Source: Candidatus Peregrinibacteria bacterium
Lineage (GTDB): Bacteria > Patescibacteriota > Gracilibacteria > UBA1369 > JACRIC01
NCBI GenBank assembly: GCA_016188705.1
Contig: JACPHH010000028.1
Span: 1-64,000, forward strand
DNA length: 64,000 nucleotides
Direction: 5' to 3'
In this document: positions 955-59,735 of the stretch, piece by piece
Position numbering within the stretch: position 1 is the first letter of the stretch
Layout: every line of letters begins with the position of its first letter
The notes under the pieces: generated by a model
Told to the model about the DNA's origin: nothing
Seen by the model: the letters and a program-made list of their open reading frames with translations, nothing else
Databases searched by the model: none
Made by a program: the position numbers and the translations under genes

Positions 955-1407
955 TTACTTATGATAAACGCGGGCAATAATCATGCCGCCAAAAATACTG
1001 ATAACAAAGGCTTCAATAGCCCAAACCCAAATAAGCATCAAGGGAACGTTAAAAAGAAGAAAGGTTGAAAATCCGCTTGAAATGCCCGAAATAAGAAAAA
1101 TAAGTATGCCGAAACACATGCCTTTTTCCGAAACGGTTCCATGAAGAGAAGTATGAATGATGCTATACACAAATGCCAAAACGATGCCTATAACCATTGA
1201 AAAGAAAAAAGACACGACAAAAAACACGGGAGGAGGCGGTCCAAAAGATGGCATCATGATAACGCTCCAAACTTCACGAGTAGTACCCAAAGTATAATAT
1301 CCCATTGAAAAAAGGGCCGACACGCTATGAACCACTTGAGCAAGAATGGCGTACAAAAATCCCAGAAGAACAATTTTCCCAAAACGTTTCATCTCGAACA
1401 TAAACAC
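955..1407 (-). CDS. Polytopic membrane protein of unknown function
   Basis: The 150-residue product has four predicted membrane helices (about residues 8-30, 60-85, 95-117 and 122-146), with a Pro-rich turn (GPPPP) before the second. No catalytic motif is visible. Starts at residue 1 or at the internal Met of MKRFGK are both possible. I do not recognise the family. It lies downstream of a cupredoxin gene in a same-strand run with DoxX and VKOR genes, so an envelope role is likely, but the sequence shows nothing more specific. Confidence 0.6.
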   Translation of the reverse strand: MFMFEMKRFGKIVLLGFLYAILAQVVHSVSALFSMGYYTLGTTREVWSVIMMPSFGPPPPVFFVVSFFFSMVIGIVLAFVYSIIHTSLHGTVSEKGMCFGILIFLISGISSGFSTFLLFNVPLMLIWVWAIEAFVISIFGGMIIARVYHK

Positions 1408-1522
1408 ATAATCTAAAAAAAATACGATTTATAAAAACTATAGCACTTGTAAAAATAATGTAAAAGAAAAAATGCTAAAAATATTTTGATAGGGTGAAAA
1501 TAAAAGTTGTTCACATAGAATT

Positions 1523-1987
1523 CTATTTCACCTCAATAGTTCCCGCGTCACCAGGATTCAAATGATTATGATATTTCCAGCTTCCTGAAACATCAAACGT
1601 GAACAACCAACTATCGTCCGGCTGAACGCCTTTGCAAGCATCAAAAGTACTGCCGAGACACCCGCCTGTTGTAGGATACGAACGATGACTTGGATGAATC
1701 GCTGAAGCTGTCCACATTGACCGCGAGCTTTGATTTTTAAAAATAACGGTTTCACCCTTTTTAATCCGTAAAGCCGCTGGCGAATAACCTGCGTCGGTAT
1801 ATATTACTAATTTTTTTTCCGTAACAGAATCTTCTCCTAAAGATGGCGGCAACGCCGAATTTGAGTATGTGGATGTATTTGAGTCCATAAGAAAAAATCC
1901 GCTCAACGCGATAACCAAAACAATAAAAATAATACTAACGATTTTATTTATACTAAAAACCCCCTTAAAAAACTTTGGCGCGCCCAT
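1523..1987 (-). CDS. Membrane-anchored cupredoxin-like protein
   Basis: An N-terminal membrane anchor (about residues 13-33) is followed by a linker and a plastocyanin/cupredoxin-type beta domain (about 58-154). Seen motifs are KKGETVIFKNQSSRSMWTAS, IHPSH, a Cys pair in GGCLG...DACKG, and the final strand WKYHNHLNPGDAGTIEV. Typical blue copper sites end in C-x(n)-H-x(n)-M; here the position of the usual Cys is occupied in YHNHLNP, so a classical type 1 site is not obvious and copper binding is unproven. The start overlaps the end of the DoxX-like gene by 40 bases, which implies translational coupling. A periplasm-facing copper or redox role is inferred from the fold and the neighbouring VKOR. 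Confidence 0.75.
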   Translation of the reverse strand: MGAPKFFKGVFSINKIVSIIFIVLVIALSGFFLMDSNTSTYSNSALPPSLGEDSVTEKKLVIYTDAGYSPAALRIKKGETVIFKNQSSRSMWTASAIHPSHRSYPTTGGCLGSTFDACKGVQPDDSWLFTFDVSGSWKYHNHLNPGDAGTIEVK

Positions 1988-2379
1988 GTCGTTATTTTTT
2001 GAAAAAAAGAAACCCGAGGCAGCATTGATTGAGGAAACGCGTCAATTACAAGCGCCAACGCCGCGACAAGAAGTCCAATATCCCGCACTGTTATATCAGT
2101 AATACCGCTTACCGTCAGAACAATAATAATATGAATGGAACCGACAAAAGCCGCGAGCCACGACAAAAAATCAAAAAGCAAAAAAGCACCGACAATAATA
2201 TCCAAAATGGCAGTCCCGATCATGGCTTTCTCCAAAGGAACAGGCAAAAGACCCGCCGCCCATGGCTGCAAATAGCCGCCCCAAGCCTCCGGAGTTTTAA
2301 AAATCAAAACGCCAATCCACAAAAAAGTGATTGCCAAACCGACTCTTAAAAAATGAAATGATGTTTTTTTCATGCTCAA
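1948..2379 (-). CDS. DoxX-like integral membrane protein
   Basis: This 143-residue protein has four hydrophobic helices (about residues 10-28, 45-70, 73-93 and 98-115). The pattern is LRVGLAITFLWIGVLIFKTP...W, then a Pro-rich loop, then GTAILDIIVGAFLLF, as in the small DoxX/DUF4149-like group. Members of the DoxX superfamily accompany thiol or thiosulfate redox systems, but many are uncharacterised. It sits between the VKOR gene (gap of 23 bases) and the cupredoxin gene (overlap), suggesting one envelope redox operon. The family call is moderately sure and the exact role is not known. Confidence 0.6.
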   Translation of the reverse strand: MSMKKTSFHFLRVGLAITFLWIGVLIFKTPEAWGGYLQPWAAGLLPVPLEKAMIGTAILDIIVGAFLLFDFLSWLAAFVGSIHIIIVLTVSGITDITVRDIGLLVAALALVIDAFPQSMLPRVSFFQKITTWARQSFLRGFLV

Positions 2380-2402
2380 ATTTTTTATATTAAATTTTTA
2401 TA

Positions 2403-2816
2403 TCAGAATTTAAGATTGCTTGCCAAAATTATAATCCCCATAAACCAAATGGTAAAGGCGGACATAAGACACCAAAAACACCAGGCTTTAATCACTCGCC
2501 ACTGAAGATAAGTAAAAACCAAAGACAGAACCGCTCCAATCAAAACAGAAAGTTTAAAAAGAAGCTCCCAAAACATCAGCGGTCCGATGCCGATGACCAA
2601 AAAACTTGAAATAAATGAAGCCGAAATATAGAACAACAAACCCAAAATATCATTTGGGATGATAAAAATTTTATTATATTTACTGTTTAAAACCAAAACG
2701 CAACTCTCTCCAATGGGGCAAACGGGTTTTTCATGTTCAATCCGCGTACGAATAAGATAGGCTGTTTCGCTTATGCCAATCGCCGAGAGTGTAAAAAGAA
2801 GCGCGAATGCTGTCAT
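2403..2816 (-). CDS. Vitamin K epoxide reductase (VKOR) family disulfide-forming protein
   Basis: VKOR homologues in bacteria reoxidise thioredoxin-like partners so that exported proteins gain disulfide bonds. They pass electrons to quinone. This 137-residue protein has four to five membrane helices and the two diagnostic Cys pairs: CPIGESC in the first loop and the redox centre WCFWC near residue 112. The signature S-K-Y-x(5)-IPNDILGLLFY between them also fits. The C-terminal thioredoxin domain found in many bacterial fusions is absent, so the partner must be a separate protein, not seen in this window. It forms a run with DoxX and cupredoxin genes. Confidence 0.85.
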   Translation of the reverse strand: MTAFALLFTLSAIGISETAYLIRTRIEHEKPVCPIGESCVLVLNSKYNKIFIIPNDILGLLFYISASFISSFLVIGIGPLMFWELLFKLSVLIGAVLSLVFTYLQWRVIKAWCFWCLMSAFTIWFMGIIILASNLKF

Positions 2817-2836
2817 TCCGTAATGTTAGGCGGTTA

Positions 2837-3193
2837 TTATTTTTTTGGATTTGGACCATATTTATTTTCTCCAGGGTTACTATCTTTAGCCATTAATACC
2901 ACTAACCAAATGAATCCAATCAATGGAATAAGGTTTATTAATAACATCCAGCCGCTTTTTCCAATATCGTGCAATCTTCTTACTGAAACAGCTAATACCG
3001 GAATAAAAACCGCCAAAGAATAAATACCAGACATTCCAAGACTTACTCCTAAATTGCGTTTAATAAATTCATCAATAATACTAAGCACGATGCTAATAAT
3101 TATATTGAATAAAATAAAATACCAATACTCGGCCCGTTGAGAACGTCCATTAAAAACGGCGTACTTCTTCAATGCTGATAGGTAATAATTCAT
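2837..3193 (-). CDS. DUF805 family membrane protein
   Basis: The 118 residues fit the DUF805 (YhaH) family closely: an N-terminal LKKYAVFNGRSQRAEYWYF, the central SVRRLHDIGKSGWMLLI, and a Pro-Leu-Ile-Gly loop before the final helix. Four membrane helices are predicted. The biochemical role of DUF805 is unknown. It is the first gene of the minus-strand envelope run, 20 bases upstream of the VKOR gene. Confidence 0.85.
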   Translation of the reverse strand: MNYYLSALKKYAVFNGRSQRAEYWYFILFNIIISIVLSIIDEFIKRNLGVSLGMSGIYSLAVFIPVLAVSVRRLHDIGKSGWMLLINLIPLIGFIWLVVLMAKDSNPGENKYGPNPKK

Positions 3194-3326
3194 GATATTT
3201 TAATTTTAAAAATTATGACGACCTTAATTGAGAAACATTAAAAAGGGCTTAAAAATTCCCTTAAAAATAATATACCAAAAAAAATAAAATTTTCAACCTT
3301 AGAAATTTTTTATTCCACTTAAAATT

Positions 3327-3340
3327 TAGGCAGTGTTCAC
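3327..3340 (-). repeat. Family C short repeat (GTGAACACTGCCTA)
   Basis: This 14-base motif occurs here on the minus strand and again, with at most one change, at 32366-32380, 51131-51145 and 60784-60797. All four copies are outside coding sequence or touch a stop codon. It lies just past the 3' end of tmRNA. The 51131 and 60784 copies share further upstream bases (AGAAAATTnTAT), so the unit is longer than the core. It may be the end of a decayed mobile element. Confidence 0.6.
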
Positions 3341-3353
3341 AGCGGTCAAACTT

Positions 3354-3795
3354 TGGTGGAGATGCCGGGAGTCGAACCCGGGTCCAAAGACGAAGAAGAA
3401 AAACCTCTACAATCATAGTTTGCTTTCATTGAGCCATTAAAAGATAAAAAACAAACGAAAAACCTTATAATGGCAAGTTCAAAATTTTCGTGATTTTGAC
3501 CGAACTTACAAATCAAAATCCTTATCCTGAAAAGTTACACCGTAAAGAAATTATCAGGAATCATTTCCCACGATGCTCGTCAGCCTCCATTAAGGGAGGC
3601 TGAAACGAGAAAAACCTTAGGCAAGAACTGGCACGGGAGCAAGAGCCTTGAGAGCCCTTACTGTTGCCATCTCACCAAAAGTTCGCAGATTTTCTGCACT
3701 TAATGCGCGCTGGACGGATTAAAGGTGGGACAGCGCGACCACCTGATTGCCATCTTTCCTCAAAAACATCTCTGTCGAAGCCAAATTACATCCCC
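3354..3795 (-). ncRNA. ssrA: Transfer-messenger RNA (tmRNA, SsrA)
   Basis: The 3' end reads as a tRNA-like T-arm and acceptor (GACTCCCGGCATCTCCACCA on the minus strand, CCA encoded at 3354-3356). The 5' end GGGGATG at 3795 pairs with CATCTCC to give a 7-bp acceptor stem with one G-U pair, followed by the typical TTGGCTTCGACAGAG. The tag frame begins at the resume codon GCA (3695-3697) after TTAAGT. It runs 26 codons, starting AENLRTFGEM and finishing LAPVPVLA, and stops at TAA (3617-3619). The tag is long and does not end in the usual ALAA. tmRNA with SmpB rescues stalled ribosomes and marks the product for proteolysis. A stable hairpin follows (GCCTCCCTTAATGGAGGC). Confidence 0.95.
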
Positions 3796-3815
3796 ATGTG
3801 TCAAAGAGCAAAAAA

Positions 3816-3843
3816 AGTATAGCAATAAAACCTTATTTGTAAA
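3816..3843 (-). promoter_or_regulatory. Predicted ssrA promoter
   Basis: On the minus strand a -35 TTTACA (3838-3843) and an extended -10 TGCTATACT (hexamer 3816-3821) are separated by 16 bases. Transcription would start near 3809, leaving a short leader for RNase P to remove before G3795. The outer bases of the -35 box coincide with the left end of the family A repeat. Confidence 0.5.
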
Positions 3844-4006
3844 GGAACCTCTGAAAAACGTAACTTCGTAACGAAATTTTACCATGTTGAGCGAAAAATG
3901 TGAAAAGCGACAAAGACGTATCAGATAAGATACGTTGAGGAGCTTTGAACATTTTGCAGCCAACATGGTAAAATTGCAGTAGATGGTAGGTTTTTCAGAG
4001 GTTCCT
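3843..4006. repeat. Family A structured repeat, copy 1 (164 bp)
   Basis: The ends are a 17-bp perfect inverted repeat (AGGAACCTCTGAAAAAC at 3843-3859, complement at 3990-4006). Inside are a box TTCGTAACGAAA, a stem pair AATTTTACCATGTTG (3875-3889) with CAACATGGTAAAATT (3961-3975), the box AGCGAAAA, a central hairpin CGTATC...GATACG, and TTGCAGCC / TTGCAGTAG. The same order of boxes appears at 57314-57483 and 58115-58282, where the stem sequence is different but still self-complementary. It has no coding capacity and resembles a MITE-like or REP-like element. Confidence 0.75.
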
Positions 4007-4172
4007 AAAGCGCGTCATGGGTACCGATGTCATAAAAAATAAACACCGCGCCATCTTTTCTATAAAGAGCTCTTAAATCATATCCGATAAAAATAGCTCG
4101 ATATCCAAAAAGTTTTCCGCCAAGAATATGATTTTTCAGTTTTGTATCAAAAGGATTACGCTCAAATAAAAA
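4005..4172 (-). pseudogene. Remnant of a RelE/YafQ-type toxin gene
   Basis: The minus-strand frame directly after the mfd stop codon encodes FLFERNPFDTKLKNHIL, then GYRAIFIGYDLRALY and a final IGTHDAL. This is the C-terminal two thirds of a YafQ/RelE-type mRNA interferase ('NPFD..L..H.L.G', 'R..Y', 'IGTHD'). The frame has no start codon: it runs back into the mfd coding region and stops at 4191-4193, so the N-terminus is gone and no antitoxin is present. The stop codon (4005-4007) is formed with the end of the family A repeat. It is probably a dead toxin-antitoxin remnant. Confidence 0.65.
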
Positions 4173-4174
4173 GC

Positions 4175-7100
4175 CTACAAATGTTTCTTTTTAGGCTTGC
4201 TTCCAAGCCGTTTCACGTTCTCTCGAAGCTCTGAAAACCAATTTACGCCCAAATCCTTGCTTTTAATTTTCAACTTGCTTCCGCTAATAATCCACTTGCT
4301 GTTATACTCAAGCATGTTAAAAATGTGTTCAGGCTTCATTTTGTCCGACATCGTCATCACAATTTGCCGCTGATCGGGATCGTGAATATTTTCAGCCTTA
4401 ATATTTGTAAGAAAAGCCTTTTTCGCCAAAATTTTCACTTCCAACACCCTGAAAAGATTACGCACTTCTCGCGGCATTTGTCCATAATCTTCCACGAGTT
4501 CGCCGGACAATTCATCAAGATATTCTTTATTATCCGCGGAAGCAAGCCGTTGATACACATTAATTTTCTCCTTCGTGTTAACGACATAATAATCAGGAAT
4601 AAAACAAGTAAGAGGAAGTTCAATCGACACGTCCGCGATTTCTTCAGTTTCCGCCCGCTTCCCTGCTTTCAAATCCTCAACGGCCTTATTGAGCATGCGC
4701 ATAAAATGACTCACTCCAACCACGTTAATGGCGCCATGCTGATTAACTCCCAAAATATCGCCTGCTCCGCGAATTTCAAGATCCTTCATGGCAATTTGAA
4801 AACCTGATCCCAATTCAGAAGCCTCAACAATGGCGCGAAGGCGTTTTTTAGCATCAAGAGGAAGTTTTTGCTGATGATAAAGAAAATAAGCATAAGCTTG
4901 CGTTCGACTTCGACCCACGCGACCTCTCAATTGATAAAGCTGCGCGAGTCCAAATCGTTCAGCGTTATTTACAATCAAAGTATTGGCATTTGGAAGATCA
5001 ATTCCATTTTCAATAATCGTGGAACTCACAAGAACATCATATTTACCATCTTTAAAATTAATAATAGCCTGTTCCAATTCGGAATTAGAAAGCTTTCCGT
5101 GAGCGACAATAAATTTTGCTTCAGGGATAAGAGTAGACAGGCGTTCCATGACGCCATCAATGGTTTGCACCCGATTATGAAGAAAATAAACCTGACCCTT
5201 TCGTGCGATTTCACGTAAAATCACGTCGCGCACAAGCTCATTTGAATACCTTCGAACCTCGGTAATAACGGGAAGCCTGCCCGGAGGCGGCGTGGTGATA
5301 GTGGTAATGTCGCGAATTTTATTAAGCGCGATATTCAGTGTTCTTGGAATCGGCGTCGCGGTAAGAGTCATGATATCTACTTCTTTTCGAAGATGTTTAA
5401 GGGTTTCTTTCTGCTTCACCCCAAACCGCTGCTCTTCATCAATAATAACAAGACCAAGGTCTTTAAATTTAATATCGCTTTGAAGGAGTCGATGCGTTCC
5501 AATAATAATATCGACCTCGCCTCGTTCCAAACGACATAAAATATCTTTTTGTTCTTTTTTACTTTTAAAGCGCGAAAGCATTTCCACCCTGACATGAAAA
5601 TCATTCATTCTTTTTGTAAAAGAATGATAGTGCTGATCCGCCAAAATAGTAATAGGTGAAATAAGCGCGACCTGTTTGCCGTTTTGAACCGCCTTAAAAC
5701 TTGCCCTCATGGCCACTTCCGTTTTTCCAAATCCAACGTCTCCACAAATAAGCCTATCCATTGGCTTAGCTTTTTCCATGTCGGCCTTAACGTCAAGAAT
5801 GGCTTTCACTTGACCGGGAGTCTCTTCGTAAGGAAAAGTTTTTTCAAATTTTTCCTGGTCAGGGACGTCTTGTTTAAAAGCAAATCCTTTCGCTTGTTGC
5901 CGACCGGCGTACAATTCCAAAAGCTCTTGAGCGATTTTTTCCGTTTCTTTGCGAACTTTATTCGTAACAGTAGCCCATTCAGCCGAACCAAGCCGCGTTA
6001 ATTTTGGAGCGCCTTCCGACGCGCCTATATACTTATTAACTTTATCAGCCTGATCAATTGGAACAAAAAGCTTATCATTTTCCGCGTAGCCGATTTTTAA
6101 ATATTCCCGCGTTACGTTATCAACGGTTCGTTTCTCCAAGCCCTGATACATGCCAATACCATGGTCTGAATGAACCACGTAATCGTTTACGCGAAGACTT
6201 GTAAGAAAATCGAGATACACTTTTTGTGAAGACTGGGCTCGTTTGCGCTCCTTAAAACTCATAATCTCCTTATCCGTCATGACAAGAATCTTCTCGTGCG
6301 GATTTTGAAAGGCATAAGGATACGTATCTTCTTTATCGATTTCTAAAAGAAAAATTCCATCTTTCTCTTGCTGGGACGCCATTACATGAAATGGAATATT
6401 TTTTTCATCAAAAATCGCCTTCATTTCATTAAAGTTTTTCGTAAAAAAAAGAATTTTCCAATTCGTCTGTTGCTTCTCGCGAAAATCATTCAAAAGATCA
6501 TGCAAAGAATAATACCGAAGAACAGAAAGATAATGAAGGTTTTCGTGGCGATCGCCTTCTTCAAAAAATGACGTAAAGCTTAAGGAATGAAATTGCTCTT
6601 TTCTTTGCTTAAACACGGTGTCAAAAAGCTCAGAAAACTCATCAATGGCCTCAATTTCATCATCAATAACAAGCGTTTCTTTTGGTAAATAATCCATAAG
6701 ACAACTACGAGAAAAATCACCATTCACGGGATATATTTCTAAATGAGTCAATTCCGTAAGGTGCGACTGTGTTGTTTTATCAATTAACATCATTTTACCA
6801 AGTTGATCAAAGTCAGCCTCAATCACCACGGGACTCTCCATGTTCACGGGAAAAATCGACAAAACTCCTCCTTGCCGAAAATACTTTCCTTTATCTAAAA
6901 CCATGTCTTCTGAAACCTCATATCCACGATCAATAAGTTGTTCAAAAAGATCCATAATCGGCATATTATCACCCTTTTTAAGAGTAATAACCCTTTGAAT
7001 AATTTCATCATAAAGAGGAACTGTTTGAAAAAGGGAAGTATAGGAAAAAACAATAATAACCCGATCGCTATTTTGAAGAAGAGAAAGTGTTTCCAAAAGC

Positions 7101-28716: not shown

Positions 28717-29103
28717 TTATTGAAGCGTTCCATTTTTTCCTTCGCCTGTAATATTTTGAACAGTATTGAGTATTTCTCCAAAATCGATATATCGAATAAT
28801 ATCCAGACCCAAAGCCTTTCCGACTGTTGCGACGAGAACTACGGCAAGCACCGTAATAATAAGCCCGATAATCGCATGGCGGATTGTTCCGACTGCTTCT
28901 TTGATTTTAGCATCATCACCGCCTGAAAGAATAAATTTTATGCCTCCGTAAATGACGTAAAACACGCATAGGAGTCCGGCAAGAATAATGGCATAAGCAA
29001 TGCCGCGATTAATAATTTCGACTATGTTTATATTGGCAAGATTGGAAAAATCAATATTTTGCTGAGGAACAACGACTATCCATCGAAACAAATCCTGAAT
29101 CAT
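28717..29103 (-). CDS. VirB2/TrbC pilin-like two-helix membrane protein, paralogue 2
   Basis: The 128-residue protein has two membrane helices (about 34-58 and 76-100) joined by the loop GGIKFILSGGDDAKIKEAVGTIRHAI. This is the layout of the TrbC/VirB2-like 'pilin' proteins common in Patescibacteria. It ends with a short polar tail. It lies 4 bases after its paralogue (29108-29518), with which it shares VEIINRGIAY, GGDxxKIK and ALGLDIIRYI. Such proteins may form surface filaments or membrane channels, but this is not established. Confidence 0.75.
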   Translation of the reverse strand: MIQDLFRWIVVVPQQNIDFSNLANINIVEIINRGIAYAIILAGLLCVFYVIYGGIKFILSGGDDAKIKEAVGTIRHAIIGLIITVLAVVLVATVGKALGLDIIRYIDFGEILNTVQNITGEGKNGTLQ

Positions 29104-29107
29104 AGAC

Positions 29108-29518
29108 TTAGTCTAAGGTATCAACGCCGCTGGAACCGCCGGATTCTCCAATGCTGCGGACAGTATCAATAATATCGCCAAAATTAATATATCGAATAAT
29201 GTCGAGTCCAAGAGCCCGACCAACCGTGGCTACGGCAACAACAGCCAAAACCGTAATAATAAGACCAAATATCGAATAACGTATAGTACTTACCGCCTGT
29301 TTGATTTTTCCTTCATCCCCGCCTGAGAGAATAAAAGAAATACCGCCAATAAAGACGAAAATAACCGAAAGAAGACCAGCGACAATTATCGTATAGGCAA
29401 TACCTCGGTTAATAATTTCAACCACGTCATAGTTTTGGGCGGCTTCAACGATAGACTGAGCAGGCATAGGAATAAATAAAAAAATAATATTTATCAAGGG
29501 TTCCCTTAACTTTACCAA
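29108..29518 (-). CDS. VirB2/TrbC pilin-like two-helix membrane protein, paralogue 1
   Basis: This protein has the same plan as the next gene: an N-terminal hydrophobic leader ending around MPAQS, then two membrane helices separated by GGISFILSGGDEGKIKQAVSTIRYSI, then ALGLDIIRYINFGD. Translation could also begin at 29467 (MPAQSIVEAAQ), which would remove the leader. It is the first gene of a tandem duplicate pair transcribed together. Confidence 0.75.
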   Translation of the reverse strand: MVKLREPLINIIFLFIPMPAQSIVEAAQNYDVVEIINRGIAYTIIVAGLLSVIFVFIGGISFILSGGDEGKIKQAVSTIRYSIFGLIITVLAVVAVATVGRALGLDIIRYINFGDIIDTVRSIGESGGSSGVDTLD

Positions 29519-46380: not shown

Positions 46381-46612
46381 GGATCATACGCTTTTTCTTT
46401 TGAAAAAAAGTACATATCGCTGGGAGGCGGGGGCTCGTCGCTCGGATACTCGGCTGGATCAAAAAGGACGAAAATTCGCTAAAAATGCTATCGGCTACGC
46501 ATTTTTTAACGCTCATTTTCGCCTCTTTTTGAAAACCAAAAACCAGCCTGCGTAACTCGCTCCGAACCCACGCCTCCCAGCATATATATTCAAAGGAAAA
46601 AGCGTATGATCC
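46381..46612. repeat. Family B inverted-repeat element, complete copy (232 bp)
   Basis: The ends are a 21-bp inverted repeat with one mismatch (GGATCATACGCTTTTTCTTT..., 46381-46401, and complement 46592-46612). The GGATCATACG end is duplicated just outside (46371-46380). An inner palindrome GCTGGGAGGCG ... CGCCTCCCAGC is nested inside. It has no coding capacity. A half-length copy lies at 51154-51261 and a degraded one near 32276. Confidence 0.75.
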
Positions 46613-51153: not shown

Positions 51154-51261
51154 GGATCATACGCAAATTTTCGTCCTTTTTGATCCAGCCGAGTATCCGA
51201 GCGACGAGCCCCCGCCTTCCAGCGATATGTACTTTTTTTCAAAGGAAAAAGCGTATGATCC
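51154..51261. mobile_element. Family B element, half-length copy with 8-bp target duplication
   Basis: The element equals the left half of the 46381-46612 copy in reverse orientation. It runs from GGATCATACGC to GCGTATGATCC (11-bp perfect ends). It is flanked directly on both sides by TAACTGCC (51146-51153 and 51262-51269), an apparent 8-bp target-site duplication, as left by cut-and-paste transposition. No transposase is encoded, so it would depend on an enzyme from elsewhere. Confidence 0.65.
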
Positions 51262-55306: not shown

Positions 55307-56266
55307 TTACACACCACAACCGCCGCCACCGCTTTGCCGTACAGGTTGGACAAGCGATTGAATGGCTCGATATCCCTTTGAACTGGAATATTGGGCGCTG
55401 AGCATTTCTTTTGGATCAACATTTTCCCAGGAAATACCATTTTTTAACTCGTATTTGGCCAGCGTAAGATAGGTAGTTGGAAACCAATAAGCATTCACCT
55501 GAAGGGCCATTTTGTACATATCAGCTTCCGACGTGCCTTGTGATGCCATAAGTTCAAGGAGTCCGAACATAGCCATGCCGTGGTTGCAATCAGGAAAGTA
55601 GGTTGAATTATTGCAGCACGGCCGAAAAATTCCTTTCGAAACATTTTCAACCAAAATTTGTTGGTCATAAGTAAGCTTGATAAATTCGTGTTTACTGAAA
55701 TGATCCATGGCGTCGCCACTCGCGAGCGTCCAGCCGCCGGTTGAAGCGAAATTTCCAGCTCCGCCATATTCTTTGTCAGACATCGGGCCTGAGTTCAAAA
55801 TTTCATTTTTATTACTCAGTCCAAGCGCCCAAAACATATTGAGAATAAAACCGGCATTATCAGCTGTAATTTTTATTTTTCCGTTTTCACTTTCGTCCAC
55901 AAGTTTTTGCTCGTCTGGACCAAATCCGGGTCGTTCTTTATAGAGAGAAAGAAGCTGGTTGCGATCAATAACACCCTTTTGAACGAGCTGTTTTCCCAAG
56001 TCCCCCCACCTGGCAGGAAGTTCAATCCCTTCCAATGGTAAAACAAGTTTCGTCAGACTCTCAATATCAATGTCAACATCGCTAATGGATGTAGTGTTTG
56101 TTCGATTTTCTGACAGGGTTCGAGCTGTTTTGCTATTACGAAAGAAAAGTCCCCTTAAATCTGGCCCATAGAGATCACCAAGAACAAAGCCGACACCGAG
56201 AGTGAGAATTGTTGCTCCTGCGAATAAGCTATAAAGAACTTTTTTTGCCGTCTTTTTTTGAGTCAT
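55307..56266 (-). CDS. Membrane-anchored conserved protein with CCN..DCNHGMAM motif
   Basis: One N-terminal membrane helix (about 12-32) leads to a soluble domain of about 280 residues. The most striking part is FRPCCNNSTYFPDCNHGMAM (about 215-234), which gathers three Cys, one His and two Met in 16 residues and could hold copper or another soft metal. The end is SGGGGCGV. It is the last of a three-gene operon with two membrane proteins that each carry CxxC motifs. Proteins like it occur in other small-genome lineages, but the function is unknown to me; a metal-binding role is inference. Confidence 0.65.
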   Translation of the reverse strand: MTQKKTAKKVLYSLFAGATILTLGVGFVLGDLYGPDLRGLFFRNSKTARTLSENRTNTTSISDVDIDIESLTKLVLPLEGIELPARWGDLGKQLVQKGVIDRNQLLSLYKERPGFGPDEQKLVDESENGKIKITADNAGFILNMFWALGLSNKNEILNSGPMSDKEYGGAGNFASTGGWTLASGDAMDHFSKHEFIKLTYDQQILVENVSKGIFRPCCNNSTYFPDCNHGMAMFGLLELMASQGTSEADMYKMALQVNAYWFPTTYLTLAKYELKNGISWENVDPKEMLSAQYSSSKGYRAIQSLVQPVRQSGGGGCGV

Positions 56267-56294: not shown

Positions 56295-56735
56295 TTACCA
56301 ATCTCGGCAACAGGCGATAAGCCGTTCCATAATTTTTTGCATATTTGGATGATTTTGAAATAAATATATGCCCGTGAATACCAACCATAGAAAAGCCAGA
56401 AATGTCATGGCCATAATGACGCCGTCTCGAATACCAATTGAGAGATACACAATAACAGTCATGGTGATGATAAATGGCCAACGAAAGAGCTGCCACTTGA
56501 CCGGCGCCTTTTTTTCAAGGAGGTAATAAAGACCAACGACGCTTTCTCCCATGAGAACACCAATAAGTGTTGAATTGACGTTATAGCCAAAAAAACGAAA
56601 ACTTAAAAGTAACAGCCAAGTACCGCTCACCGCAACGCAGACCGCGCAAAATCTAAGTCGCAAGAAACTTTGTGCTGCGATGCCCGCGACAAAAATAGCC
56701 GTAGTGAAAAGGATAAGGAGTGGTAACACGCTCAT
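56295..56735 (-). CDS. Polytopic membrane protein with CAVC motif
   Basis: The 146 residues form four to five membrane helices (about 4-24, 32-48, 55-73, 83-100 and 104-125). A CxxC pair (RFCAVCVAVSG, about 30-33) sits at the start of the second helix and could be redox-active or metal-binding. It overlaps the upstream gene by 4 bases (ATGA type), so translation is coupled. I recognise no named family. Confidence 0.7.
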   Translation of the reverse strand: MSVLPLLILFTTAIFVAGIAAQSFLRLRFCAVCVAVSGTWLLLLSFRFFGYNVNSTLIGVLMGESVVGLYYLLEKKAPVKWQLFRWPFIITMTVIVYLSIGIRDGVIMAMTFLAFLWLVFTGIYLFQNHPNMQKIMERLIACCRDW

Positions 56736-57280
56736 AGAATAAATTGCGTTATGATTGAAATAATGCCAAGGAGGGCAAGAGTGAGCAGTACGCCTTGATA
56801 CGGCAATGTTATGCCGCGATATTCGGTAATGAATCGACTGAGTCGAGGAGTAAGAAAAATAAGAATGCCGCCAGTAAAACTGCCAACGAGAAATAAATTA
56901 ATAGGATATGTACGATTAAGAAGTGATCCATATGGCCCGCGCCAGTTAATATATATGGATGTATAGTCCGAGAGGAGCATTTTCAAGGGGAGAATAGTGG
57001 TAATCCAGGAAAACACGCCGAGAATAGCATCTTGATAAATCAAATATTTTTTTTTGATGATTCTGGCAATCCAAAGACCCATAGCCACGGCAAAAGCACC
57101 AAGAAATACTCCTATGGTCAAACCGTTGACTCCGAGCCAATAAGCGCCGAGAGTTATAAGCCCTGCCCCCGCTGTGCAAAGAGGACAGTGAGCAAAGACA
57201 GTAGCAGGAAGTAGAAAAGAGCTGAAGCCAATTCCAATGATAAAGATCCTCTGAAAAACATTCTTTCGACTGCGTTTCAT
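56732..57280 (-). CDS. Polytopic membrane protein with CPLC motif
   Basis: The start at 57280 gives MKRSRKNVFQRIFIIGIGFS, a signal-like helix ending in VFA-HCPLCTAGAG. A CxxC pair therefore lies just outside the membrane, followed by four more helices. The longer frame up to 57535 is only read-through of the family A repeat and is not used. The last motif ITEYRGITLPYQGVLLTLAL is well formed. It is first of the three-gene operon. The first 12 codons lie inside a short inverted repeat. Function is unknown; an electron- or metal-transfer role is plausible. Confidence 0.7.
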   Translation of the reverse strand: MKRSRKNVFQRIFIIGIGFSSFLLPATVFAHCPLCTAGAGLITLGAYWLGVNGLTIGVFLGAFAVAMGLWIARIIKKKYLIYQDAILGVFSWITTILPLKMLLSDYTSIYINWRGPYGSLLNRTYPINLFLVGSFTGGILIFLTPRLSRFITEYRGITLPYQGVLLTLALLGIISIITQFIL

Positions 57281-57307
57281 TTTGAAAACAGTGTTTTTTA
57301 GAGGTTC
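57245..57307. repeat. Mini family A-like inverted repeat over a start codon
   Basis: GATCCTCTGAAAAACA (57245-57260) and TGTTTTTTAGAGGTTC (57292-57307) are near-complementary and match family A ends. The start codon and first 12 codons of the CPLC membrane protein lie between and within them. Confidence 0.55.
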
Positions 57308-57313
57308 AATGAG

Positions 57314-57483
57314 TAAAGGAAACCCTGATAAATATGATTTCGTTACGAAAATTGCAAAATTCGAGCGAAAACGCTGAATGACCGACGAAGCCGTATCAAA
57401 AAAAGATACGGTAAGGAGGTCTGAAGCGTTTGCAGCCGAATTTTGCAATTTGCAGTAGTAAGCATATTTATAAGGGTTTCTTA
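57314..57483. mobile_element. Family A structured repeat, copy 2
   Basis: The ends TAAAGGAAACCCTGATAAAT and the (slightly altered) complement lie at 57314 and 57483. Outside them is AATGAG on both sides (57308-57313 and 57484-57489), a likely 6-bp target duplication. Inside, in the same order as copy 1: TTTCGTTACGAAA, stem AATTGCAAAATTCG (57350-57363), AGCGAAAA, hairpin CCGTATC...GATACGG, TTGCAGCC, stem partner CGAATTTTGCAATT (57437-57450), TTGCAGTAG. It is almost identical to copy 3. Confidence 0.75.
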
Positions 57484-57545
57484 AATGAGACCGCGCGATA
57501 TTCATATTTTTTTTACTGCCAATGTAAGGTGTCAAAAGTTCAAAT

Positions 57546-58031
57546 TTAGAAACTTAAATAGGGTAGCGAAGTACCGTCCGCGTTAAAACTGGAAATATCA
57601 AAAGTTCCTATTTTTCCACCAGGCATTCCAGGAGAACCTGAGGGCATTCCAGGGAGGGCGATGCCGTCAATGTCAGGCTTTTCAGTTAATAATTTTTGAA
57701 TAACTTCCGAGGGTATATGGCCCTCTACTGTATAATTTTCGATGCGAGTAGTATGACAACTTTTAAGATTATCGGGAACGCCGAATTGTTGTTTTATCGT
57801 GGCCATATTTTCAGTTAATTTTTCTTCAACTTGAACGCCTGCCTTGCGTAAATATTTAATAAAATTGGCGCAGCAGCCACACGTTACCGAACGATAGACA
57901 ACGGCATTTTTCCCCGCAAGAAGGTTGTTGTTTGAGGGAGACTGATTCGTTGTCGCGATGAATAAAACGAATCCGACAACGAAGGTAAGCACGCAGATAA
58001 TTACGTATTTTTTTTGATATGACTTTATCAT
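57546..58031 (-). CDS. DUF411 metal-binding protein (copper-related)
   Basis: An N-terminal membrane helix (about 8-27) leads to a DUF411 domain: SVTCGCCANFIKYLRKAGVQ (CGCC metal site), FGVPDNLKSCHTTRIENYTV, EGHIPSEVIQKLL, and the Gly/Met/Pro-rich end ALPGMPSGSPGMPGGK. DUF411 proteins occur in copper-resistance clusters and resemble the Cu-binding CopI/CopG-type group. The product would face outwards. The gene is flanked by two near-identical family A repeats in direct orientation (57314-57483 and 58115-58282). Confidence 0.9.
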   Translation of the reverse strand: MIKSYQKKYVIICVLTFVVGFVLFIATTNQSPSNNNLLAGKNAVVYRSVTCGCCANFIKYLRKAGVQVEEKLTENMATIKQQFGVPDNLKSCHTTRIENYTVEGHIPSEVIQKLLTEKPDIDGIALPGMPSGSPGMPGGKIGTFDISSFNADGTSLPYLSF

Positions 58032-58114
58032 AGAGAATAAAAATTATAAAAATACCAATACCTATACCATAGGTCATGGTATTTAAAAAATACCACTTCT
58101 CATATTTGTTTGTC

Positions 58115-58282
58115 AAGGAAACCCTGATAAATATGATTTCGTTACGAAAATTGCAAAATTCGAGCGAAAACGCTGAATGACCGACGAAGGCGTATCAAAA
58201 GAAGATACGGTGAGGAGGTCTGAAGCGTTTGCAGCCGAATTTTGCAATTTGCAGTAGTAAGCATATTTATCAGGGTTTCCTT
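58115..58282. mobile_element. Family A structured repeat, copy 3
   Basis: This 168-bp copy has perfect 21-bp terminal inverted repeats (58115-58135 and 58262-58282, beginning AAGGAAACCCTG). It differs from copy 2 at only three or four internal bases and has the same orientation. The inner stems AATTGCAAAATTCG / CGAATTTTGCAATT and the GTATC...GATAC hairpin are intact. Confidence 0.8.
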
Positions 58283-58290
58283 AAATAAAA

Positions 58291-58395
58291 GAGCGTTAAA
58301 AAATGCGTATCAGATAAGATACGTAAAGGAGGAGTGACGAAGTCGTAGCCAAAATGGTAAAATTACAGTCGTTGGTACTTTTTTCAGAAGTTCCT
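58291..58395. repeat. Family A repeat, copy 4 (left end missing)
   Basis: From GAGCG through ATGCGTATCAGATAAGATAC to AAGGAGG, GTAGCC, AAAATGGTAAAATTACAG and the end TTTTTTCAGAAGTTCCT, this matches the right two thirds of copy 1 (3843-4006), not copies 2 and 3 next door. The left terminal repeat and left stem arm are lost. It ends about 30 bases before ispDF. Confidence 0.65.
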
Positions 58396-58424
58396 AAGAT
58401 GAATACCCTTATTATATTAAAAAC

Positions 58425-59735
58425 GTGTCAATAAATTCCTTCGTTATTATCGTGGCGGCTGGAAAATCACGGCGTTTCAAAAAAAAGCTTTTTCGGGAAA
58501 TTGATGGAAAAAAAATTCTCGTTTATACGCTTGAAGCCTTTGAAAAACACCCAAGCATTCATCATGTGATCATTGTCGTTCGAAATGAAGAACAAAAAGA
58601 AATAAAAAAAATGTTACGGGAAGAAGGAATAAAAAAAGTCAAAGCTTTGGTGAATGGCGGGGAAACTCGGCAAAAAAGTGTAAAAAAAGGACTGGAGTGG
58701 CTTATAAAAGTAAAAAAGCCAAAGAAAAACGATATCATCATGATACATAACGGAGCCAATCCACTCGTGTCTCAAAAGGAAATAACAGACGTGCTAATGG
58801 CCGCTCAATCATTTGGAGCCGCCGCCTGCGGAGTGTCGCTTGTGGATACTATAAAAAAAGTAAAGGGTGGTTTTGTGCAAAAAACAATACTTCGGGAAAA
58901 TCTCGCGGTGATGCAGACACCGCAAGCTCTTCGATTTGACTGGCTCGTGGAAGGGATGAAAAAGGCTGAAAAAGAGGGAAAAATTTTTACGGACGATGTG
59001 AGTTTAGTAGAGCAGTTAGGGAAAAAAGTAAAAATTGTGCAAGCGCGTGAAGAAAATAAAAAAATAACATTCGAAAGCGATATTTTGTACATGCGGCGCA
59101 TAATTGAAAACAGAAAAAGACTAAAAAATATAGCTTTAAATAAAGAAAAAGGTAAAAATAATGACGATAAAAAAGATCAAAAAAGAGAAAATGACAAAAA
59201 TGAGCTAAAAATGATATGTAATAATATAAAAAAATGGCTAATAAAAAAGGAAAATAATACCAATTATTCTTTTGGAATTGGAGAGGATAGTCATGTGTTT
59301 TCAAATGAAAAAGGGCTTACTCTCGGAGGAATATACTTTCCCTATTATCAAAAACTCGACGCGAATTCTGATGGAGACATTATTATTCATGCTCTTTTTA
59401 ACGCGCTTTCCTCTGCCATTGGCGGTGATTCTCTTGGTAAAACGGCAGATTCCCTTTTTCAACATCAATTAATAAAAGACAGTACCGTCTATCTTAAGCC
59501 GTTATTGGAAGTTATGCAAAAACGTAACCTTAAAGTGAGTCATCTCGCTATAAGTTTGATTACCCAAAAACCAAAAATCGATGATCACGCAAAGGAAATA
59601 AAAGATTCTCTCTCAAATATTCTCAAGATGCCAAATAACCATATCGGGCTTACGGCCACATCGGGCGAAGGGCTTCCTGATTGGAAAAAAGTTATGAAAT
59701 GTACCTGCGTTGCGCTTTTGGAAAAAAAGAAATAA
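58425..59735 (+). CDS. ispDF: Bifunctional IspD-IspF enzyme
   Basis: Two non-consecutive steps of the MEP isoprenoid pathway are fused. The IspD half (about 1-225) shows VAAGKSRRF, VNGGETRQKSV, MQTPQAL, FTDDVSLVEQLG and ITFESD. The usual HDAARP motif is altered to HNGANP, replacing the Asp that binds Mg in the E. coli enzyme. A Lys/Asn-rich linker of about 50 residues follows. The IspF half (about 283-436) keeps the Zn ligands in GIGEDSHVF (DxH) and SDGDIIIHAL, plus ATSGEGLPDW. The start is GTG 58425, which fits the IspD N-terminus; TATTAT lies close upstream. It is 14 bases before ispE. Confidence 0.9.
   Translation: MSINSFVIIVAAGKSRRFKKKLFREIDGKKILVYTLEAFEKHPSIHHVIIVVRNEEQKEIKKMLREEGIKKVKALVNGGETRQKSVKKGLEWLIKVKKPKKNDIIMIHNGANPLVSQKEITDVLMAAQSFGAAACGVSLVDTIKKVKGGFVQKTILRENLAVMQTPQALRFDWLVEGMKKAEKEGKIFTDDVSLVEQLGKKVKIVQAREENKKITFESDILYMRRIIENRKRLKNIALNKEKGKNNDDKKDQKRENDKNELKMICNNIKKWLIKKENNTNYSFGIGEDSHVFSNEKGLTLGGIYFPYYQKLDANSDGDIIIHALFNALSSAIGGDSLGKTADSLFQHQLIKDSTVYLKPLLEVMQKRNLKVSHLAISLITQKPKIDDHAKEIKDSLSNILKMPNNHIGLTATSGEGLPDWKKVMKCTCVALLEKKK

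Follow-up and report, generated by a model that had tools for sequence, protein, structure and literature searches.

Two near-identical repeats on either side of a single gene raise the question of whether the gene and its repeats move, or are amplified, as one unit. The question is posed here by the window, i.e. the whole stretch of 64,000 nt that was analysed from a Candidatus Peregrinibacteria bacterium, in which two repeats of the same orientation, at 57313-57485 and 58112-58284, are 96% alike over 173 nt (799 nt from start to start) and enclose exactly one gene, that of a DUF411 metal-binding protein. The initial annotation had described this arrangement, ascribed the repeats to transposition, and proposed that repeats and gene together form a composite cassette. 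In our analysis the arrangement was confirmed, with the enclosed gene identified by Pfam PF04214 (E 9.4e-24), and an origin by transposition was borne out by terminal inverted repeats (TIRs), a 4-bp target duplication and dispersed copies. The proposed cassette is not supported, and the elements turn out to enter protein genes in frame elsewhere in the genome.

RESULTS

The repeats around DUF411 are copies of a palindromic MITE

The transposed unit in both repeats is a 164-bp core running from GGAA to TTCC, located at 57318..57481 for copy 2 and at 58117..58280 for copy 3, both on the minus strand, on which each core has a stop-free frame. The unit is a palindrome over nearly its full length, and the predicted fold of the region of copy 3 (58112-58284) has a z-score of -12. 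Between the two copies the initial annotation had counted three or four internal differences; we find 5 substitutions in the 164 bp, 2 of which lie in the right terminal repeat. The unit, denoted family A, has the features of a MITE: TIRs of the GGAAACCCTGATAAA type with GGAAACCCTGATAAATAT at both ends, a fixed 4-bp duplication, a length of 164 bp with no transposase, and dispersed copies, of which ∼42, counting family A and closely related elements, were found on some 20 contigs of this genome. In the assembly (1,374,393 bp in 35 contigs, 94.65% complete), the TIR pattern had 119 exact matches, compared with 0 for a reversed control.

To the right of DUF411, copy 3 adjoins the right half of a truncated element of the related 162-bp family B (58301..58397, plus strand), and a complete family B element of 162 bp, presumably copy 1 of the initial annotation, is located at 3844..4005 (plus strand). 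The window also holds an inverted repeat pair of 99 nt (46381-46479 and 51163-51261), 97% complementary and 4.7 kb apart, and a direct repeat of 268 nt (28760-29427), 71% alike with a 400-bp spacing.

Target-site duplications point to independent insertions

To define the duplication, we used 51 TIR-bounded candidate elements taken from stretches around elements in this genome. An exact 4-bp flank match was found in 27 of them, compared with 4.7 when flanks were shuffled, and a match of at least 5 bp in none. Copy 2 has flanks TAAA/TAAA, a perfect 4-bp duplication, and copy 3 has flanks TCAA/TTAA, an imperfect one. The 6-bp repeat AATGAG, which had been noticed on both sides of copy 2 and taken as the trace of transposition, is indeed present, but because duplications of this element are 4 bp and never 5 bp or more among the 51 candidates, it is not the target duplication. 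Upon removal of the element and one TAAA, the sequence CAATGAGTAAATGAG is obtained, in which the short AATGAG repeat is already contained.

If copies 2 and 3 had moved with DUF411 as one mobile or amplifiable unit, as their common orientation, the TIRs at both ends of each copy and the single enclosed gene might lead one to expect, the outer flanks of the pair should match. They differ, with TAAA on the left and TTAA on the right, which argues against a joint move, and the whole unit from copy 2 through DUF411 to copy 3 has no target duplication outside it, by which a composite transposon or a MITE-flanked cassette would be recognised. Moreover, copy 3 differs from a copy on contig C12 at 3 positions and from copy 2 at 5; since copy 3 is nearer to the C12 copy, copies 2 and 3 are not sisters produced by local duplication. 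Taken together, the perfect duplication that copy 2 has of its own, the mismatched outer flanks and the closer kinship of copy 3 with the C12 copy argue for independent insertions.

By chance, ∼0.6-0.75 pairs at 250-850 bp are expected per genome, with a probability of 0.48-0.54 for at least one, and 2 were seen. A pair as close as copies 2 and 3 is thus expected about half of the time. The other close pair, on contig C12, brackets no whole gene, and one of its copies lies inside QueE.

DUF411 belongs to a conserved operon that lacks the repeats elsewhere

The DUF411 protein (57546..58031) carries CGCC and SCHT motifs and was identified by alignment and synteny in addition to its Pfam match. 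Its gene is the first of an operon on the minus strand, with a 182-aa membrane protein that has an HCPLC motif (56732..57280), a 146-aa membrane protein (56295..56735) and a 319-aa protein (55307..56266) as the second, third and fourth genes, all on the same strand; beyond copy 3 lies a divergent neighbour, an IspD-IspF fusion (58425..59735, plus strand). In four further genomes of this order (G015, G033, G034 and G055), DUF411 is followed within ∼8 bp by an HCPLC membrane protein of ∼180 aa and then by a membrane protein of ∼150 aa, and the 319-aa protein is also found in the same stretch in three of the four. The same gene order occurs in named Parcubacteria, Doudnabacteria, Magasanikbacteria and Peregrinibacteria and in several DPANN archaea. 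The relatives of DUF411 and of the operon also lead us to place the host in the Patescibacteria. Neighbouring genes in relatives encode, among others, a CopA-type ATPase and CsoR-like proteins, as read from their translations.

The comparison of this locus across related genomes, which the initial annotation had named as a way to decide the matter, also goes against a cassette: at the loci compared, in further genomes of the order and in other Patescibacteria, the DUF411 operon is present and neither a family A nor a family B element was found in it. Judged from gene order, DUF411 is not mobile cargo, and the gene would have been present before the insertions. Although mobility of genes and integrons between MITEs is known from other bacteria, and both integrons and resistance genes flanked by MITEs have been documented (PMC10969869), a composite cassette is, on these grounds together with the flanks and kinship of the copies, highly improbable for this locus. 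Recombination between copies 2 and 3 that deletes or amplifies DUF411 is possible in principle.

In the window, the junction between DUF411 and the HCPLC gene measures 265 bp, as against ∼8 bp in relatives, and is filled by copy 2 and by an older, diverged mini-MITE with degenerate TIRs (57241..57309, approximate ends, minus strand), which has kin among the other short elements of the genome. From this mini-MITE come the ATG and the initial ∼11 codons (MKRSRKNVFQR) of the window HCPLC protein, an extension that relatives do not have. Copy 2, the mini-MITE and the HCPLC gene share one open frame of 273 codons. The HCPLC gene probably starts at the ATG at 57280.

Copy 2 thus separates the first two genes of the operon, and copy 3 lies upstream of the first. 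With such positions and a very stable fold, the copies could be conceived mainly as mRNA elements (RNase III sites or attenuators) tuning DUF411 and the genes behind it, and a role of this kind has been proposed for Correia/NEMIS and ERIC (PMC2229807). We regard this as unlikely, since copies adjoin unrelated genes and sit within coding regions, and no Rfam match was found at E 1; on the same search a structural RNA was rejected. An effect of the hairpin on the operon may be a side effect rather than the reason for the spread of the element.

Element families and the search for a mobilising transposase

Elements of families A and C are 164 bp long and those of family B 162 or 216 bp. Family C has GGAACCTCTGAAAAACG ends, and its coding strand is opposite to that of family A on the same palindrome. 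Families A and C enter genes, whereas none of family B was seen inside genes. Related elements were found by DNA in 11 of the 59 genomes of the order, and by a peptide profile in 12 of 89 genomes, both counts including this genome. In the relative G034, related elements are located at the very ends of contigs C30, C33, C38, C88 and C90, where they probably break the assembly, and they may be nearly identical and recently active.

Searches of this genome (94.65% complete) with PF01609 (DDE_Tnp_1), Y1_Tnp and the transposase of the relative G039 were all negative, and a REP/RAYT system was rejected due to the lack of Y1_Tnp. Concerning an autonomous parent, the TIR pairs recognised in the stretches around elements enclose only elements up to ∼230 bp, and the listed TIR places gave no convincing pair of transposase size. 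The transposase of G039 belongs to the IS5 family (NF033581, E 1.4e-100) with the TIR TAAGGACTCTCTGAAAAAA, and the ends of that element, GGACTCTCTGAAAAA, agree with the ends of ours, GGAACCTCTGAAAAA, at 13 of 15 bases; its flanks, ATAA/TTAA, are imperfect. The G039 protein is absent from the window genome and from the other 57 relatives. From this TIR similarity, found in a member of another family of the order, we infer an IS5-type origin as the best account of the element.

Copies in protein genes keep the reading frame

With its 4-bp duplication the 164-bp element adds up to 168 bp and hence to a whole number of codons, 56, with one frame free of stops. In family A this frame, GNPDKYAYYCKLQNSAANASDLLTVSS.DT.SSVIQRFRSNFAIFVTKSYLSGFP, is open in all 16 aligned 164-nt copies; the predicted peptide of family C, GTSEKRNFENENAKIRAKTLKDDEGVSEEDTARRSEAFAAESLHLQSKGSFSEVP, is encoded by the opposite strand of this palindrome, and the intact copies of family C (4 of 4) lie in genes in that frame. 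Family C copies were found in KsgA, PyrD, a glycosyltransferase and the N-terminus of a type IV secretion pilin, and family A copies inside QueE and near the C-terminus of an O-antigen ligase. Several family A copies with long open frames have a likely start codon downstream of them and may not be translated.

Alignment to solved structures shows in-frame insertion into conserved genes for KsgA, PyrD and HisF2. In KsgA, the alignment runs up to residue 130 and resumes at 222; the element occupies 166-220 and is preceded by a further low-complexity stretch. PyrD aligns over 20-166 and 249-429, with the element at 187-241. HisF2 aligns over 9-145 and 173-265, with the chain of the structure continuous across the join, and hence has a clean 27-residue insert, which holds a remnant of the element. 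For QueE, the N-terminus aligns and the C-terminus does so weakly. The QueE insertion (C12, element 1502-1665) is nested, having landed in the end part of an earlier, decayed element of the same kind (around 1665-1685), where SSKGNPDK stands directly before GNPDKY.

Decayed remnants in the same frame were found in TilS, HisF2, UvrC and an aminotransferase, TilS having two separate ones in a frame of 618 codons (contig C22, ORF 1779-3632, plus strand). Remnants in PcrA, phosphoketolase and NrdD are less certain, and the weakest rest on short matches. The NrdD frame (contig C20, ORF 1061-4252, minus strand) has, besides the possible remnant, an apparent intein of ∼300 residues between NrdD segments. 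Beyond this genome, in-frame copies were found in the sister genus G001, one within a sugar transferase and one at the N-terminus of a RelA/SpoT-like protein, and in G039, at the N-terminus of a CYTH-like protein; the latter two proteins are named by reading.

Of the 22 compared elements for which length plus 4 is divisible by 3, 6 are in genes, compared with 0 of 18 others (one-sided Fisher P 0.019); this value is only indicative, as it covers the copies from the stretches around elements, some called with mismatches and a few with overlapping calls, and an in-gene set chosen by inspection. Some family A frames are open merely through an open ancestral frame, and one might suppose that the interrupted KsgA, PyrD, QueE and others are dead, with the frame kept open by chance. 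However, in many different conserved genes the reading frame is open before and after the element, which is without exception read in its own coding frame, and the decayed remnants inside otherwise intact TilS, HisF2 and UvrC require long survival of the host gene. We therefore consider it very unlikely that in-gene copies mark pseudogenes.

No selection at the protein level was detectable on the family A peptide, in which 11 of 36 distinct changes are synonymous compared with 9.9 expected. Recruitment of the peptide for a function, kept by selection, could be imagined from the mini-MITE, which supplies the start and a charged N-terminus of the 182-aa operon protein, but with family A substitutions that look neutral and remnants that are shortened and diverged, we give it hardly any credence. 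Tolerance of frame-keeping copies is the reading that we retain.

DISCUSSION

Our data very probably reflect independent insertions of a non-autonomous palindromic MITE, moved in trans, that flank the first gene of a copper-type operon, with in-gene copies tolerated where they keep the frame. An IS5-family transposase would move the element in trans, and would by now be lost, lie in the missing part of the assembly or have escaped detection. The element would insert widely across the genome, and purifying selection would leave mainly intergenic copies, together with in-gene copies oriented and phased such that the host protein can still be read through. The 55-residue peptide that they encode would then ride along as a tolerated insert and gradually decay.

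MITEs with open frames that are fused in frame to genes have been described as RPE in Rickettsia, YPAL and ERIC in enterobacteria, and Correia in Neisseria (PMC2229807, PMC10969869). Rickettsia palindromic elements are likewise palindromic, measure ∼100-150 bp, have an open frame and have entered, without shifting the frame, many conserved protein genes of a small genome (PMC2229807, PMC10969869). The likeness is one of behaviour; the element here belongs to another phylum, has 164 bp and a clear 4-bp duplication, which is unclear in RPE (PMC2229807), and its two subfamilies use opposite strands of one palindrome as the coding strand. YPAL/RU-2 of Yersinia, compared by description, is a palindromic repeat of 168 bp whose open frame encodes 56 aa; it is fused in frame to genes and in some cases provides a signal peptide (PMC2229807). 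It is reported mostly as fusions making putative new proteins, whereas here several copies lie inside conserved enzymes. Correia/NEMIS and ERIC are also TIR-bounded hairpin MITEs with target duplications (PMC2229807), but their TIRs and hosts differ from those of the present element. In Neisseria, too, the size classes differ, one of them having open frames and lying within genes and another not lying there (PMC2229807); here, families A and C are found in genes and family B was not seen inside them. In the open-access literature we found no report linking Patescibacteria or the Candidate Phyla Radiation to MITEs or coding palindromes. The family is thus a known kind, a coding palindromic MITE, in an unexpected host group, with its likeness to the named families judged by behaviour.

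Patescibacteria are known for their tiny genomes. On balance we lean slightly towards a wider reading, in which a frame-preserving palindromic element invades core enzymes across an order of these ultra-small bacteria, with two subfamilies coding on opposite strands, and in which protein length in minimal genomes is shaped by unrecognised selfish inserts. For annotation, the locus serves as a warning that repeats on both sides of a gene are, in such genomes, no sure sign of a mobile cassette. The element offers a defined selfish source of protein insertions in Patescibacteria, with fresh and decayed stages in one genome, and the long-standing question from Rickettsia, whether coding palindromes contribute to protein evolution or are no more than tolerated, becomes testable in an unrelated phylum.
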